Part shown: piece by piece, positions 2,061 to 25,659 of the stretch
Layout: each line of letters starts with the position of its first letter
Numbering within the stretch: the stretch's first letter is position 1
Assembly (NCBI GenBank): GCA_013695115.1
Contig: JACDBD010000422.1
Coordinates: 1-25,973 of the forward strand
Source: Actinomycetota bacterium
GTDB lineage: Bacteria; Actinomycetota; Acidimicrobiia; IMCC26256; JACDBD01
Reading direction: 5' to 3'
DNA: 25,973 nt
Position numbers and translations under genes: made by a program
Notes under the pieces: generated by a model
Database searches by the model: none
Seen by the model: only the letters and a program-made list of their open reading frames with translations
Told to the model about the DNA's origin: nothing

Positions 2061-2113
2061 AGCGAGCGAGCGCCCGCGGGCCGGGTATCCCGGCCCGCAG
2101 CGAGGGAGCGAGG
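2061..2113 (+). repeat. Shortened copy of the leader repeat upstream of dtd
   Basis: This block shares AGCGAGCGCCCGCGGGCCGG and, after a deletion of about 20 bases, CCCGGCCCGCAGCGAG with the 111-bp repeats at 20241-20351 and 24635-24745, in the sense orientation before a gene. Its core is a perfect 10-bp hairpin (2076-2085 with 2089-2098, loop TAT). The preceding 50 bases (TTCCGCGCGGCGA then GAGCGAG) also resemble the 5' part of the full repeats. A real ribosome binding site (AAAGGAGGGG) lies between this block and the GTG of dtd, so here the repeat does not abut the start codon. Confidence 0.6.
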
Positions 2114-9758: not shown

Positions 9759-10211
9759 TCAGACCGTGCCGGTCGCGCCGCGCTCGTTCCTGATCAGTAC
9801 GGCGCCGACGATCGACGCGAGCGCGGCGATGAGCAGCAGCCAGTATCCGAAGCCGGTGTCGGTCGTGCCTTTGTCTTGGATGAGGTAGGCGAGCGCCAGG
9901 ATGGCGGAGAAGAAGCCCAACGCCAGCAACAACTGAGTGAAGCCGAAGCCCAAGAAGCCTCGCGAGAGGTCGACGTTGGCGAATTTCGTCAGGACGACGA
10001 GGAGGCCCGCCACCACCGCGAAGATCGCGATGAGGGTCGCCACCGGGAACAGAAACGGGAAGTCGCTGCTCCAGGCGCTGAAGTTCTTGTCGACGGTCTC
10101 GAGCTCGGCATTGAATGTCTCTTGCTTGTAGAAGGGCAGGAACGAGGCGATCAACGCGACCGCTCCCGCCGCCATGACCACGATCTCGCCCGGTGTGATC
10201 TTGTTGTCCAC
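9759..10211 (-). CDS. Four-helix membrane protein, paralogue 1
   Basis: The 150-residue protein starts at GTG 10211 with GGAGGT 9 nt upstream. It has four predicted membrane helices (about 10-27, 54-75, 86-110, 120-140) and the N-terminal signature DNKITPGEIVVMAAG before helix 1, with LPFYK at its end and KFANVDLSRGFLGFGFTQLLLALGFF in the middle. It is a close paralogue of the next two upstream genes (identical loop KFANV-L). The extra loop between helices 1 and 2 (about 20 residues) is the main difference. No domain of known function is recognised. Its stop precedes the DUF4202 reading frame directly, suggesting a shared transcript. Confidence 0.8.
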   Translation of the reverse strand: MDNKITPGEIVVMAAGAVALIASFLPFYKQETFNAELETVDKNFSAWSSDFPFLFPVATLIAIFAVVAGLLVVLTKFANVDLSRGFLGFGFTQLLLALGFFSAILALAYLIQDKGTTDTGFGYWLLLIAALASIVGAVLIRNERGATGTV

Positions 10212-10243
10212 TGGATCCAAACCTCCGTCGTGTCGGACGCCGC

Positions 10244-10645
10244 TCAGGCCTGCCGTTCGTTCCTCATGATCACTGCCCCGACGACCGACCCGACCCCCGC
10301 GATCAACAGGAGGTAGTAGCCGAAGCCGAAGTCGACGCTGCCCTTCTCGGCGATCAGGAAGGCGATCGCCAGGATGGCGGCGAAGAAGCCCAGTGCGAGA
10401 AGAAGCTGGACGAACCCGAATCCGAGCACACCCGCCGAGAGATTCACGTTGGCGAACTTCACGAGGGCGACGAGCACGGCGGCCGCCACCACGAAGAGGG
10501 CGATGAGCGTCGCCACCGGGAACAACCCCTCGTCGAAGGAGTTCGCTGACTCCCCGTTCTTGTAGAAGGGAAGGAATGCGGCGATCAGGCCGACCGCCCC
10601 CGCCGCCAGCACCACGATCTCGCCCGGTGTGACCTTGTTGTTCAC
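10244..10645 (-). CDS. Four-helix membrane protein, paralogue 2
   Basis: The 133-residue protein starts at GTG 10645 with GGAGGT 9 nt upstream, the same ribosome binding arrangement as paralogue 1. The N-terminus NNKVTPGEIVVLAAGAVGLIAAFLPFYK and the segment LVKFANVNLSAGVLGFGFVQLLLALGFFAAILAIAFLI match paralogue 1 almost residue by residue, so this is a recent tandem duplication. Four helices lie near 10-27, 41-62, 73-97 and 108-127. Function unknown; these may be small membrane organisers. Confidence 0.82.
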   Translation of the reverse strand: MNNKVTPGEIVVLAAGAVGLIAAFLPFYKNGESANSFDEGLFPVATLIALFVVAAAVLVALVKFANVNLSAGVLGFGFVQLLLALGFFAAILAIAFLIAEKGSVDFGFGYYLLLIAGVGSVVGAVIMRNERQA

Positions 10646-10741
10646 TGGTTCTCGACCTCCATTTCACGAAAGGTGCCGTACCGGGCACCCGCGGGAGCTA
10701 GCTGATCATGGCCCTTGTGGGATTGCAAGCATCAGGTCAGA

Positions 10742-14830: not shown

Positions 14831-14836
14831 TACGAT
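14831..14836 (+). promoter_or_regulatory. -10 box for the icd leader transcript
   Basis: TACGAT matches TANNNT and ends 6 nt before a GTG at 14843 that opens a 31-codon leader frame. This is the geometry of a leaderless transcript starting at that GTG. Transcription from here would put about 100 nt before the icd ATG. Confidence 0.5.
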
Positions 14837-14842
14837 CACGCG

Positions 14843-14941
14843 GTGGAAGCGGCACGATCAAGCCACGACGGATCAACGCGGCGTCCGAGTGAGCGCCCGC
14901 GTCGTCAGGTACCCGGCGCGAAAGCGACGAGGCAATAGAGC
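14843..14941 (+). repeat. Diverged leader repeat with short ORF before icd
   Basis: This is a third, diverged full copy of the leader element. It shares an exact 13-mer GCGGCACGATCAA (14849-14861) with the copy at 20241-20351, a 22-nt block with one difference (14880-14901 against 20293-20314), and the closing pattern GCGA..GAGGC.ATAG directly before the gene. A GTG-initiated frame of 31 codons (VEAARSSHDGSTRRPSERPR...) ends at TAG 14936-14938, 3 nt before the icd ATG. Shared leader residues with the other copies are AARS and RPSERPR. Its codons show little G/C bias at third positions (about 58%), so a translated leader or an RNA element is more likely than a stable protein. TCGTC and GACGA in the second half can pair. 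Confidence 0.7.
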
Positions 14942-16144
14942 ATGCCCGAGAAGATCACCCTGGACGACGGCGCACTGCGCGTCCCCGACGAGCCGATCAT
15001 CCCGTTCATCGAGGGCGACGGCACCGGCGTCGACATCTGGCCCGCGGCCCAGCGGGTCATGGACGCCGCGGTCGAGAAGGCGTACGGCGGCCGGCGCACG
15101 ATCGCCTGGACCGAGGTGCTGGCGGGCCAGAAGGCGTTCGACCAGACCGGCGACTGGCTCCCCGAGGCGACCGTCGACTCGTTCCGCGACCACCTCATCG
15201 GCATCAAGGGGCCGCTCACCACTCCCGTCGGCGGCGGCATCCGCAGCCTCAACGTCGCCCTGCGCCAGATCCTCGACCTCTACGTCTGCCTGCGCCCGGT
15301 GCGCTGGTTCAAGGGCGTCCCGAGCCCGGTGCTGCACCCCGAGAAGGTCGACATGGTCATCTTCCGGGAGAACACCGAGGACATCTACGCCGGCCTCGAG
15401 GTGGAGGAGGGCACTCCCGAAGCCAAGAAGCTGATCGAGATGCTGCGGGACGCGTTCGGCTGGGAGATCCGGCCCGACTCCGGCGTCGGCATCAAGCCGG
15501 TCTCGGAGACCGGGTCGAAGCGCCTGGTCCGCGCCGCCCTGCAGTACGCGGTCAGTCGGAAGCGGGCGTCGGTGACGCTCGTGCACAAGGGCAACATCCA
15601 GAAGTTCACCGAGGGCGCGTTCCGAAATTGGGGCTACGAGGTCACCCGGGACGAGTTCTCCGATGTCGCCGTCGGGTGGGACGACTGCGGCGGCGATCCC
15701 GGCGGCAAGATTCTGGTGAAGGACAACATCGCCGACATCACCCTCCAGCAGGTGCTCACCCGCCCCGACGAGTTCGACGTCATCGCGACCACGAACCTCA
15801 ACGGCGACTACATCTCCGATGCGCTCGCGGCTCAGGTCGGGGGCATCGGCATCGCTCCAGGAGGCAACATCAACTACGTCACCGGCCACGGGATCTTCGA
15901 GGCCACTCACGGCACCGCGCCCAAGTACGCGGGGCAGGACAAAGTGAACCCGGGCTCGGTGCTGCTGTCGGGCGTGATGATGTTCGAGCACCTCGGCTGG
16001 CAGGAAGCGGCCGACGCCGTCGTCGCCGCGCTCGAGGCGACCATCGCCGACAAGATCGTCACCTACGACTTCGCCCGGCTCATGGAGGGTGCCACCGAGG
16101 TGAAGACATCGGAGTTCGCGTCCGCCATCATCGACCGGCTCTGA
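14942..16144 (+). CDS. icd: NADP-dependent isocitrate dehydrogenase
   Basis: The 400-residue decarboxylating dehydrogenase converts isocitrate to 2-oxoglutarate in the TCA cycle. It is of the E. coli homodimeric type: [17 protein letters not shown], the substrate loop [17 protein letters not shown] (S102 equals the regulatory Ser113 region), [50 protein letters not shown] and [17 protein letters not shown]. The K328-Y329 pair indicates NADP rather than NAD specificity. ATG 14942 is the start; the upstream leader repeat ends 3 nt before it and supplies the only nearby AGG-type ribosome binding sequence. The J-domain gene follows by 36 nt. Confidence 0.96.
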
Positions 16145-19331: not shown

Positions 19332-20237
19332 CTACGCGGTCCCGGTGCGGGTCGTCCCGCCGCCCTTGGCCCGACGCTTCTTGGGCTCGGCCGTGGGCAG
19401 CTCGATGTCGCCGGTGCCGCCCCGGCTCGCCCGCCCCGCCTCCTCCAGCGCAACCCGTAGCGACTCCATCTCGTTCACGAGCTCCTCGACGTCGCCGCCG
19501 AGGCCGCCCAGCTCGGCGACGTCCTCCGCCCGCAGCGACAGCTCGACCGCCCGGGCGACCGCCTCGTCGAGCCGCGCGTCGAGCAGGCTGAGCCGGTCGC
19601 GCGCATCCTGGGCAACGGTGCCGAGCCGTCCCGCCGACGCGACCTGGGCTTCGAGCGCCTCGATGGTCTGCACGTGGTTCTCGGCGAGGCCGGCCTTCTC
19701 GGCCGCGGCGGTGATGTCCTTTCCCTGGTCGTGGGCGCGCCGGAGCGGCTCTTGCGCCTCACCGGGCAGCGAGTTGATGAGCGCGGACAGCTGCTTCTCG
19801 GCCGACGCGGCATCGACCGAGCTCAGGCCGCCCTCGAGGGCGGCGCCGCGGCGGGCGATCCGGTAGCACTCGTGCACACCCTGCTCGATGCCGACGCCGA
19901 TCTCGTTGAGGCGGTCGCGCAACGGGCCCTCGGCGGCGGTCGCGACCGCGCGTCGGTAGCGGTGCTGGGCGTCGATCGCCTCGCGCACGAAGTGCCGCCA
20001 GGGTTCGGGCAGGCTCGCGAGCTCGATGCGTTCGGCCCGCTTCTTGCGGGGCAGCCCGAACGCCACCCGGATCCCGTAGGCGATCGCCCCGACGCCCGCC
20101 GCCGCCAGCAACGGGAGACCACTGAGCACCGCCGCCGCCGTCCCTGCCCCCGCCAGCAGGATCGCCGACGGCGCCAGCACCGCCTCCGCCGTCCTACGGG
20201 TCTTCAGGTGCTCCGGAAGCCGGTCTGCGAGTGGCAT
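19332..20237 (-). CDS. Membrane-anchored coiled-coil protein, partner candidate of PspA
   Basis: The 301-residue protein has an N-terminal cytoplasmic stub (MPLADRLPEHLKTRRTAEAV), a hydrophobic hairpin of probably two helices (about 20-60, LAPSAILLAGAGTAAAVLSG and LPLLAAAGVGAIAYGIRVAFG), a basic stop-transfer RKKRAER, and then about 200 residues of helix with coiled-coil character (ESLRVALEEAG, LDARLDEAVARAVELSLRAED). A basic tail KKRRAKGGG ends it. I recognise no named family. ATG 20237 lies 3 nt after the closing TAG of the leader repeat. Close linkage to pspA suggests a membrane receptor or anchor for it, in the way PspB/PspC or PspM serve other PspA proteins; this is inference. Confidence 0.8.
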   Translation of the reverse strand: MPLADRLPEHLKTRRTAEAVLAPSAILLAGAGTAAAVLSGLPLLAAAGVGAIAYGIRVAFGLPRKKRAERIELASLPEPWRHFVREAIDAQHRYRRAVATAAEGPLRDRLNEIGVGIEQGVHECYRIARRGAALEGGLSSVDAASAEKQLSALINSLPGEAQEPLRRAHDQGKDITAAAEKAGLAENHVQTIEALEAQVASAGRLGTVAQDARDRLSLLDARLDEAVARAVELSLRAEDVAELGGLGGDVEELVNEMESLRVALEEAGRASRGGTGDIELPTAEPKKRRAKGGGTTRTGTA

Positions 20238-20240
20238 TCC

Positions 20241-20351
20241 CTATGGCCTCGCTCGCTGCGGGTCGGGCCATCCAGAAGGGGATTGGCCGGCCCGCGGGCG
20301 CTCGCTCGGACGCCAAGTTCGCGGGGCGGAAGTTGATCGTGCCGCACTCAT
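20241..20351 (-). repeat. 111-bp leader repeat, copy before the coiled-coil/pspA genes
   Basis: This copy matches that at 24635-24745 without gaps; the 83 bp nearest the gene differ at 3 positions and the remaining 28 at 8. On the minus strand it runs exactly from an ATG (20351) to a TAG (20243-20241), a 36-codon frame (MSAARSTSAPRTWRPSERPR...) closing 3 nt before the downstream ATG. It starts 4 nt after the lipoprotein stop; TAACTT (20365-20360) would be a -10 box 8 nt before its ATG. GCGGGCCGGCCAATCC and GGATGGCCCGACCCGC form an imperfect hairpin. GCGAGCGAGG near the 3' end provides the only ribosome-binding-like sequence for the next gene. Confidence 0.85.
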
Positions 20352-23234: not shown

Positions 23235-24632
23235 CTACGAGTCGGGGATGTCGGCGGCGACGAGCGTGCTGAGCTGCTCGTCGGTCGGCTTCTTCACGTC
23301 GACGACCCGACTCGCGTGGCGCGCGATCGCCGCCTCGAACAGGTTGCGGGCGAAGCGGCCGTTCCCGAACATCGGGCCGCGCGGCTCCGCCGCCAGGCGG
23401 GCCCGGAGCTTCTCGATTGCCGATGGATCCGCCTTGTAGTTGTGGTCCTCGCCGAACGCCTCGAAGATGCGGACCATCTCGTCGTCGGTGTAGTCGGGGA
23501 ACACGATCGTCTTGGGGAAGCGTGACCGGATCCCCGGGTTGGAGTCGAGGAACTTGTTCATCGGCTCGGGGTAGCCGGCGACGATCACCGCGAGATCGTC
23601 GCGGTGGTCCTCCATCTGCTTGAGCAGTGCCGCGATCGCCTCCGCGCCGAAGTCCTGCTCCCCACCCTGGGCGAGGGCGTAGGCCTCGTCGATGAAGAGG
23701 ATGCCGCCGAGGGCCTGTCCGCAGATCTCCACGACCTTGGTGGCGGTCTGGCCCACGTACCCCGCGACCACCCCGGAGCGGTCGGTCTCCACCAGGTGGC
23801 CCTTCGAGACGACGTCGAGGGCGGCGTAGATCTCTCCCAGGAGTCGAGCGACGGTCGTCTTGCCCGTCCCCGGGTTGCCGACGAACACCAGGTGGGCCGA
23901 CTGGTCGACCACCTTGAGCTTGCGGTCGCGCCGCATGTTCTGGACCCGGATGAGGTTTGTCAGCAGCCGCACCTCGGTCTTGACCGCGTCGAGCCCGATG
24001 AGCTCGTCCAACTCGTCGAGCAGCTCCTCCAGCGACTTCTTGGGTGGCGCCTCGGCCGCCTTCCCGACTTCGCCCGGGCCGGGCTCCTTGGCCATGCCCT
24101 CGGGGCGTTCGATGCCGGCGGCGCCGAGGCGGCGCAGCATCATCGAGCGGAAGGTGTCGACCGCCAGCAACTTCTCGCGGGTCGGTACGTCCTCGAGCGC
24201 GCAGGCGGCGTGGGCGACGCGCAGCCCTGCCTGGTAGTAGGTCCAGCCGTGGGTGGTGCCGGCGGCGGCGTCGGCGGCCACGATGGTCTCGAACATCGGC
24301 GACGGCGTGATCGGCCACGCCCGGTGCTGGCGGATGGCGTCGCCGTCGCGCAGTTGCCCGGGCGTGGCGCTCGCCAGCGACTCGAACCACGGCGCCAGCG
24401 CGGCGGCGAACTCCCGCAGCTCCCCGTCGCCGTAGCGCCCGTCCCCCGCGATAACCGCCGCCGCGATCGCCTGGGCCTCGAGGGCGGCGTCGCGCTCGTG
24501 ATCACCGGCACCGGCAGGTTTCGTGGCGACCGCGCCCTGCTTACCGTCGGCGCGCGACCGCAGGTCGCCGAGCACCGCGGTGAGGTCGGTGACGAACTGC
24601 TGGACTGGCTCGGCCAGCAAATTGACTGCCAT
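23235..24632 (-). CDS. CbbX/SpoVK-type AAA+ ATPase
   Basis: From ATG 24632 the protein has 465 residues. Residues about 45-160 are a helical domain (EAQAIAAAVIAGDGRYGDGE then LREFAAALAPW) with a TerB-like look, followed by a linker. The AAA+ domain spans about 195-465: LEELLDELDELIGLDAVKTEV, Walker A GNPGTGKTTVARLLGEIY (K258), pore region SGVVAGYVGQTATKV, Walker B GILFIDEAYAL (D315-E316), sensor 1 IVAGYPEPMNKFLDSNPGIRSRF with the arginine finger, and FGNGRFARNLFEAAIARHASR. It belongs to the CbbX/SpoVK/EccA group of hexameric remodellers. A TTG start at 24710 would add 26 residues that only translate the leader repeat, so it is rejected. It heads the module and acts in the cytosol, whereas its neighbours face outward. 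Confidence 0.92.
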   Translation of the reverse strand: MAVNLLAEPVQQFVTDLTAVLGDLRSRADGKQGAVATKPAGAGDHERDAALEAQAIAAAVIAGDGRYGDGELREFAAALAPWFESLASATPGQLRDGDAIRQHRAWPITPSPMFETIVAADAAAGTTHGWTYYQAGLRVAHAACALEDVPTREKLLAVDTFRSMMLRRLGAAGIERPEGMAKEPGPGEVGKAAEAPPKKSLEELLDELDELIGLDAVKTEVRLLTNLIRVQNMRRDRKLKVVDQSAHLVFVGNPGTGKTTVARLLGEIYAALDVVSKGHLVETDRSGVVAGYVGQTATKVVEICGQALGGILFIDEAYALAQGGEQDFGAEAIAALLKQMEDHRDDLAVIVAGYPEPMNKFLDSNPGIRSRFPKTIVFPDYTDDEMVRIFEAFGEDHNYKADPSAIEKLRARLAAEPRGPMFGNGRFARNLFEAAIARHASRVVDVKKPTDEQLSTLVAADIPDS

Positions 24633-24634
24633 CT

Positions 24635-24745
24635 CTATGGCCTCGCTCGCTGCCGGCCGGGCCATCCAGAAAGGGATTGGCCGGCCCGCGGGCGCTCGCT
24701 CGGACGCCAAGTTCGCGCGGCGCGAGTCGGCTGTGCCGCTCTCAT
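24635..24745 (-). repeat. 111-bp leader repeat, copy before the AAA+ gene
   Basis: This is the second copy of the element at 20241-20351, in the same orientation and the same position relative to its gene. Its 36-codon frame opens at ATG 24745, which overlaps the hydrolase stop as ATGA, and closes at TAG 24637-24635, 2 nt before the AAA+ ATG. In another frame the repeat reads [20 protein letters not shown] followed by SEAI, continuous with the AAA+ protein; all three differences from the other copy within the 83-bp core are silent in that frame. The central inverted repeat is retained. Confidence 0.85.
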
Positions 24746-25659
24746 TCTCTGACCGCCGCCGGCAACGCCGTGAGCCACGGCGTCACGAGCTCGAGGAAGC
24801 GGTCGGGCAGCTCGAGCTGGGGCGCGTGGCCGCAGTCGTCGATCACCTCGAGCGCGAACTCAGGGTGCCGAGCCGCCACCGCACGCGCCGAACTCACCGG
24901 CACGAGCCGGTCGAGGACACCGTGCACGATCAGCGTCGGGCACTTCACGCGGCCGAGGTCGGCGGGCATGCCGCGCTGGAAGTAGAAGAACAACGATCGG
25001 GCGGCGTCGGCGTACGCGGTGGGCACCTCCGGGAACGTGCTCCGCTCGGTTGCCAGTGCCACCAGCCGCTCCCGCAACGCCGGGTCGACGCGCTCGGGAT
25101 GGGCCACCGACCACTCGAGCGTCGTATCGACCATCCCCGCCGGCCCCAGCCGCCGGGCGCGCATCCCGAGGACCCGCCCGCCGATCTGCGGCACCATCAA
25201 CGGCGCCATGCGGGTGACGAGCTGCCACGGCGGCAGCCGGACTCCCCGTTGCGGGAGCGCGGGGTCGACGAGGACGAGGGCGCGCACGAGGTCGGGGTGG
25301 CGGGCGGCGAGGCCGACGCCGATCGCACCGCCCATGGAGTTCCCGAAAACCACCGCCGGGCCCAGCTCGGCCAGCAGCGCGGCGACGAGGCGCCCGCTCG
25401 CGCCGACGGTGGCGCGGCGACCCGCGGGAATGCGGGTGAGCCCGAAGCCGGGCAGATCGACCGCGGTCACGGTGGCGTCGAGCGCGGTGGCGAGACGTCC
25501 GCCCACCGGCTCCCAGCTCAGTGTGCTCGCGCCGAGTCCGTGGACCAGCAGGATGCGCTGCTCGCGGTCGGGATCTCCCCACTCGACGGCGTGGGCGCGC
25601 ACGCCGTCGACGTCGATCCAGCGTTCTGTCCCCGGTTGCACGGGGAGAGGATCGCGCAC
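24742..25659 (-). CDS. Alpha/beta-hydrolase fold protein
   Basis: The 305-residue enzyme has a canonical fold: oxyanion-hole LLVHGLGASTLSWEP, nucleophile elbow VFGNSMGGAIG (serine), acid in TLIVHGVLDRLVPV (aspartate) and CGHAPQLELPDRF (histidine). The cap region LPPWQLVTRMAPLMVPQIGG and size resemble C-C bond or ester hydrolases of the BphD/MhpC or haloperoxidase-like group; substrate is unknown. GTG 25659 is used, and GTG 25641 is an equally possible start. It is divergent from a second hydrolase. The stop overlaps the ATG of the leader repeat frame, so it may be cotranscribed with the AAA+ module. Confidence 0.88.
   Translation of the reverse strand: MRDPLPVQPGTERWIDVDGVRAHAVEWGDPDREQRILLVHGLGASTLSWEPVGGRLATALDATVTAVDLPGFGLTRIPAGRRATVGASGRLVAALLAELGPAVVFGNSMGGAIGVGLAARHPDLVRALVLVDPALPQRGVRLPPWQLVTRMAPLMVPQIGGRVLGMRARRLGPAGMVDTTLEWSVAHPERVDPALRERLVALATERSTFPEVPTAYADAARSLFFYFQRGMPADLGRVKCPTLIVHGVLDRLVPVSSARAVAARHPEFALEVIDDCGHAPQLELPDRFLELVTPWLTALPAAVRE

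Follow-up and report, generated by a model that had tools for sequence, protein, structure and literature searches.

The icd leader of an actinobacterial contig is probably one copy of a MIRU-like interspersed repeat lying at start codons

A short reading frame that ends just before icd and recurs elsewhere on the same contig raises the question of whether this gene shares a regulatory leader with other genes or whether the leader is of another kind. The window, by which we mean the whole 25,973-nt stretch of DNA analyzed, carries icd on the plus strand at 14942–16144, and its product was assigned as NADP isocitrate dehydrogenase by TIGR00183 and PRK07006. Upstream of it, genome blastn and a covariance model (69 bits, E = 1.2e-9) recognized a type-1 leader element at 14843–14939 (+). 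A preliminary description had reported that a GTG at 14843 opens a frame of 31 codons closing with TAG 3 nt before icd, that a TACGAT lies 6 nt ahead of this GTG, that a copy near 20 kb shares with the icd leader a perfectly matching 13-mer and a 22-nt block differing at one position, and that the leader ends with GAGGC-ATAG, and each of these features was found in the sequence. The leader ORF spans 14843–14938 (+), with its TAG at 14936–14938 and the icd ATG at 14942, and encodes MEAARSSHDGSTRRPSERPRRQVPGAKATRQ followed by the stop, with GTG read as M. The -10-like TACGAT box occupies 14831–14836 (+), the 13-mer GCGGCACGATCAA 14849–14861 (+), the block GGCGTCCGAG[T/C]GAGCGCCCGCG 14880–14901 (+), and a Shine-Dalgarno-like GAGG, within the end of the leader ORF, 14929–14932 (+).

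The icd leader had been called a third copy; it is indeed a diverged copy, but one of 34 leader-type copies rather than the third. The genome of the window (G000; 2.65 Mb in 454 contigs, 87.9% complete) gave 50 blastn matches with the copy at 20240–20351 and 72 covariance-model matches at E up to 1; 64 of the latter were read and 8 left unread. The model was built from 25 copies including that of icd, which ranked 28 among the 72 matches and had a blastn E value of 9.8e-4 in the whole genome, so that its likeness to the family exceeds chance. Membership of the 34 type-1 copies, mostly 97 or 112 nt long, was judged by eye from the conserved 5′ half. Their layout is RTG NNN GCGGCA, a variable stretch, ACTTGGCGTCCGAGCGAGCG, a hairpin, GCGAGCGAGGCAATAG and the gene start, and on this is superimposed a second layer, a shorter core (GCGAGCG, hairpin, GCGAGC) that is found also without the leader half. 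The diverged 3′ part of the icd leader is common to the alaS copy (L089), and because of this the two look like a sub-type of the repeat.

Two further type-1 elements of the long class were identified by blastn and the covariance model on the minus strand of the window. The element at 20240–20351 carries a leader ORF of 36 codons plus stop (20351–20241) ahead of a gene starting at 20237, whose protein had no NCBIfam match. In the element at 24634–24745, the start ATG overlaps the stop of an alpha/beta hydrolase gene (24742–25659) as ATGA, and a 36-codon ORF plus stop is followed by an AAA ATPase gene starting at 24632. In addition, the covariance model detected a core-only element (GCGAGCG, hairpin, GCGAGC) at 2063–2108 (+), in which no leader ORF was recognized; it lies before a gene with a GTG at 2133, which we take to be dtd from its protein sequence rather than from a family search.

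A gene start on the same strand lies 1–7 nt past the element in 31 of the 34 copies, counting two whose frames leave the contig end. The genes concerned are unrelated to one another and include def, fmt, gmk, nadB, trpC, alaS, rplJ and icd. The list of downstream proteins had 33 entries; 18 of these, each following a leader copy, were searched in NCBIfam or Pfam together with the L086 frame, and 17 of the 18 had a family match, spread over many different pathways. The matched products include peptide deformylase, L-aspartate oxidase, ribosomal proteins S18 and L10, isocitrate dehydrogenase, AAA ATPase, Met-tRNA formyltransferase, guanylate kinase, TrpC, class I (W/Y) and alanyl tRNA synthetases, prephenate dehydratase, an HMGL-like protein and an IMPDH-like protein. 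We read the names trpS, pheA, nadD and guaB used here from Pfam classes. The proposal that the common leader links icd to an envelope module is therefore not supported, since the same leader stands 1–7 nt before 31 gene starts of many unrelated pathways, and this diversity likewise disfavors reading the downstream genes as a shared regulon.

The reading frame is the most regular feature of the type-1 copies. With the gene start of each copy picked by us among candidates, a start at the standard place (ATG, GTG or TTG), an open frame and a stop near the gene start were found in 24 of the 34 copies, the frames being 21–41 codons long (31–36 in most intact copies). The stop lies 2–5 nt before the gene start in 22 of these 24, and overlaps it by 4 or 8 nt in L070 (pheA) and L076, both of which carry a 1-nt deletion. 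Four further copies (L074, L082, L157 and L026) have only a later in-frame ATG, so that a simple leader frame is present in 28 of 34 copies in total. Two more (L066 and L090) were read by eye as split into two short frames, and four (L077, L084, L086 and L087) are broken, intragenic or run-on. The new gene start is usually preceded by GAGG. Reading by eye also showed that L157, L158 and L026 have lost the hairpin and still keep the ORF in frame. With respect to the termination-reinitiation control that had been suggested for icd, the geometry thus stands at the level of sequence, in its simple form in those 28 copies. The repeat can be explained without a regulatory role. In L090 (C432:5941–6039, +, before a nadD-like gene), each of the two tandem short ORFs ends with a similar GAGGCCATGACGATGG stop-start junction.

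A typical leader peptide reads MxAAR..TWRPSERPR..QRARQ, with a variable middle. This segment was measured in 29 of the 34 copies (L079, L087, L090, L157 and L026, with a misplaced automatic anchor, were read by hand, L079 from its own sequence, and left out). Its length is nearly constant, 21 nt in 27 of the 29 copies, between conserved flanks (in the icd copy, 14855–14875 of the window), and its mean pairwise DNA identity over the 21 nt of these 27 copies is 38%. Stops in the leader frame within this segment were not significantly depleted (3 seen versus 5.35 expected, P = 0.20), and stop depletion was therefore rejected as proof of coding.

Where the leader begins is informative. In 13 of the 34 type-1 copies, a TANNNT box precedes the leader start by 6–8 nt, i.e., at 13 of 102 positions, versus 2 of 1768 positions at 9–60 nt upstream, a count that includes the misplaced automatic anchors of L087, L090, L157 and L026. 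All but two (L084 and L090) of the 13 box-bearing copies have a simple intact frame. A -10 box at a spacing of 6–8 nt is typical of leaderless transcripts. In 7 of the 34 copies counted, an upstream frame of 201–499 codons has its stop overlapping or directly adjoining the leader start, the limit of 200 codons having been chosen after the table was seen. Pfam matches were obtained for all seven of these frames (NAD kinase, thiolase, CoA-transferase III, alpha/beta hydrolase, polyprenyl synthetase, DUF202 and TsaD-like), and none for the shorter overlapping upstream frames tested (L064 and L085). In both the promoter and the stop-overlap class, the leader start occupies a site at which the start codon of a gene itself would usually lie, and it is therefore expected that orthologues free of the element should use those sites themselves.

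This expectation was examined with 29 non-own loci each for alaS, trpS and pheA, which we selected from among the 13 promoter-class genes. When any candidate start near the N terminus was counted, TANNNT lay 5–9 nt before it in 11 of 12 readable relatives for alaS, 27 of 29 for trpS and 14 of 14 for pheA. Loci in which the N-terminal motif was not found were dropped (alaS 17/30, trpS 0/30, pheA 15/30, recN 14/30 and icd 3/30). The orthologues of alaS, trpS and pheA thus appear mostly leaderless, as predicted. For recN, the previous stop lay within 8 nt of a candidate start, or overlapped it, in 10 of 15 readable relatives; few of these have an exact overlap. The picture for icd itself is mixed by the same kind of comparison: 5 of 26 readable relatives look leaderless and 18 of 26 have a Shine-Dalgarno-like 4-mer, and in L219, L220 and L223, whose start was misplaced by the automatic count, the ATG as read from the sequence has no TANNNT at 5–9 nt. 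Core-like hairpins occur upstream of icd in two relatives (L222 and L238). In a genome of the same family (G001), the region upstream of icd (L216) has a GTG 66 nt before the icd ATG and 6 nt after TAGTCT; this GTG is in frame with icd, begins GTGGTGGCGGC, faintly like a type-1 start, and could be either an N-terminal extension or an old relic.

The type-1 leader appears confined to one genome. It is absent from all 26 readable icd orthologues, a result that speaks against a conserved regulator of icd and not against a lineage-specific inserted element. A search of 58 genomes of the order with a leader pattern of 23 letters (21 specified, up to two mismatches) gave matches in G000 alone, which holds 25 matches to the pattern among its 30 hits. 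An exact 18-mer of the leader family occurred at 7 unrelated places in a genome contig collection that may omit records near the window; none of the seven stretches is from a mycobacterium.

Taken together, we consider it probable that the leader of icd belongs to a genome-specific, MIRU-like interspersed repeat that settles at start codons and carries an ORF passing ribosomes on by translational coupling. According to this proposal, the repeat would come to lie at the start codon of a target gene, and the leader ORF would take over the old initiation site, either by standing first in a leaderless transcript downstream of a -10 box or by overlapping the upstream stop. The ORF would then cross the conserved GC-rich segment and stop, in most intact copies, 2–5 nt before the new start, usually placed after GAGG, at which terminating ribosomes could re-initiate on the displaced gene. 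The DNA itself shows the number of copies, their orientation and geometry, the promoter spacing, the verified overlap with upstream genes and the leaderless orthologues of alaS, trpS and pheA; from these we infer leader translation, re-initiation driving the gene, and spread by insertion.

The hairpin suggests a different account, in which the repeat is a structured, REP-like extragenic palindrome and the open frame a by-product, the GC-rich core happening to be open and the copies being too young to have been broken. The arms of the core hairpin covary, with 800 of 820 pair cells standard among 82 distinct cores compared with a maximum of 683 in 1000 shuffles, a count inflated by preselection of cores for at least 6 of 10 pairs. 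Core matches were obtained by model scan in 14 of 60 relatives, with up to 66 in one genome, and often without the leader ORF; in the core elements of the relatives the frame running across the core varies, and we claim no order-wide leader ORF. The 3′ hairpin core itself is a REP-like repeat found across the order, and the insignificant stop depletion in the variable part would also suit this account. A palindrome with an incidental frame is less easily squared, however, with leader starts at transcript-start or stop-overlap positions, with hairpin-less copies that keep the ORF, or with frame-shifted copies that still stop at the gene start. Furthermore, the stability of the icd leader RNA is not unusual, its folding being no better than that of shuffles (z = +1.32), with that of the def leader slightly better (z = −1.38). 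We therefore regard this account as unlikely.

More doubtful still is a host regulatory leader, acting as a peptide attenuator or translational switch on a regulon of icd and the genes at 20 and 24 kb. The conserved WRPSERPR..QRAR end of the peptide, seen by eye, and an order of leader, hairpin and gene that resembles attenuators would suit it, but the 17 family-matched downstream proteins span many pathways, the middle of the peptide varies to the extent given above, and the icd orthologues examined lack the leader. With respect to the features of a leader-peptide attenuator, no regulatory codon run common to the copies was seen by eye, and an Rfam scan of the window returned no match at E up to 1. 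Finally, gene starts could have been mis-assigned, the leader being the N-terminal or promoter region of each gene. Fusion of L086 in frame inside a gene, the run of L087 in frame into the next gene and the upstream in-frame GTG of the G001 icd orthologue all point that way; against it, a TAG or TAA closes the leader frame just before the gene start in most copies, and the orthologues of alaS, trpS and pheA begin near the assumed gene starts, so that we consider mis-assignment highly improbable.

As for how the MIRU-like repeat might have spread, L086 (C418:5927–6038, +) is embedded in frame in a molybdopterin oxidoreductase gene, flanked on either side by Pfam domains and just ahead of the dinucleotide-binding one, and L087 and L067, read by eye, form a tandem pair before a guaB-like gene. 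Both arrangements are as expected of spread by insertion. Beyond the start codon, no target-site duplication was seen by eye. The transposase search was made with the Y1_Tnp family (RAYT, PF01797), a gene of which was present in 5 of 61 genomes searched; G000 gave no match, and at 87.9% completeness the gene could be missing from the assembly. A RAYT transposase as mobilizer in G000 was set aside on this absence, within the completeness just given, and carriage by a plasmid or phage was rejected after a plasmid/phage search without a match; around a single viral 18-mer hit no further element sequence was present. A literature search, with most subscription journals outside its scope, found no report of this repeat family.

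Among known systems, REP and BIME sequences are extragenic palindromes, and MIRUs reach lengths of up to about 100 bp. The present repeat resembles REP/BIME in its GC-rich hairpin core, its many copies, its covarying arms and its frequent location between genes, and differs from them in that type-1 copies stand at gene starts with an ORF running through them and that no Y1_Tnp (RAYT-type) gene was found in G000. MIRUs are described, in the parts of the sources drawn on here, as 53–77 bp long (PMC4213456) and as repeats that appear mobile, insert at start codons with an ORF coupled to the gene at −4 nt, and likely have little effect on expression (2025 review, PMC12548453). Compared with these accounts, the present family is likewise a short interspersed repeat at co-oriented gene starts (34 copies, 31 with a gene start 1–7 nt on). 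It differs in lineage, in its REP-like hairpin core, in its spacing, which is mostly +2 to +5 with −4 only in L070, and in that 13 of 34 copies lie behind TANNNT boxes as at leaderless promoters; a simple ORF is present in 28 of 34 copies. As regards sequence, the indirect 18-mer check matched no mycobacterial contig.

Mycobacterial leaderless uORFs coupled to downstream genes were reported by Shell et al. (2015; PMC4633059), and in an example given in the portion of that report consulted, leaderless initiation and coupling are kept and the peptide sequence is not. Similarly, the leader described here would be a short ORF beginning at the first codon of the transcript and ending at or near the next start, the transcript start being predicted from the -10 box in 13 of 34 copies. 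The uORFs of that portion are separate loci, whereas here one repeat supplies about 28 such frames. Thus, the repeat seems to work like MIRUs and leaderless uORFs and to be a member of neither, with no sign of shared sequence. Rickettsia palindromic elements, for their part, insert in frame within genes, as stated in the part of PMC10969869 used; L086 is comparable, but it is only 1 of 34 copies, and a separate leader cistron is the rule here.

We further propose, tentatively and with less confidence than the coupling itself, that the repeat is a non-autonomous mobile element, unrelated to MIRUs, which targets the start codons of leaderless or stop-overlapping genes and which is harmless by virtue of a complete coupling cistron, borrowing the ribosome entry of its target and returning it to the displaced start. 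If this is true, actinobacteria evolved the targeting of start codons by a repeat with its own leader cistron at least twice, in the present case out of a palindromic core found throughout the order. To the known repeats hiding at start codons by translational coupling, the family would add a second case, apparently unrelated in sequence. Its element-bearing genes and their leaderless orthologues would provide natural before/after pairs in which to study whether ribosomes that terminate can supply the start that follows. Starts beside GC-rich repeats in such genomes would need care in annotation, and shared leaders need not imply shared regulation.

Several minor observations were made alongside. 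In L163, L166, L170, L171 and similar places in G000, the core hairpin directly follows the upstream stop, with an apparent second hairpin and the next gene about 40 nt on; this arrangement looks like a third, intercistronic type. At the nusG-rplK junction (L245–L274), 22 of 30 loci were readable, 13 with a spacer of 15–58 nt and 9 with one of 95–242 nt; several of the longer spacers carry GC-rich repeats, and a core whose in-frame ORF stops immediately ahead of rplK occurs in G000, G002 and G042. Within the window, the stretches 9781–10051 and 10254–10524 are similar at 74% DNA identity, and 10125–10226 and 10559–10660 at 85%; they belong to adjacent similar minus-strand genes for small membrane-like proteins, apparently a tandem duplication.
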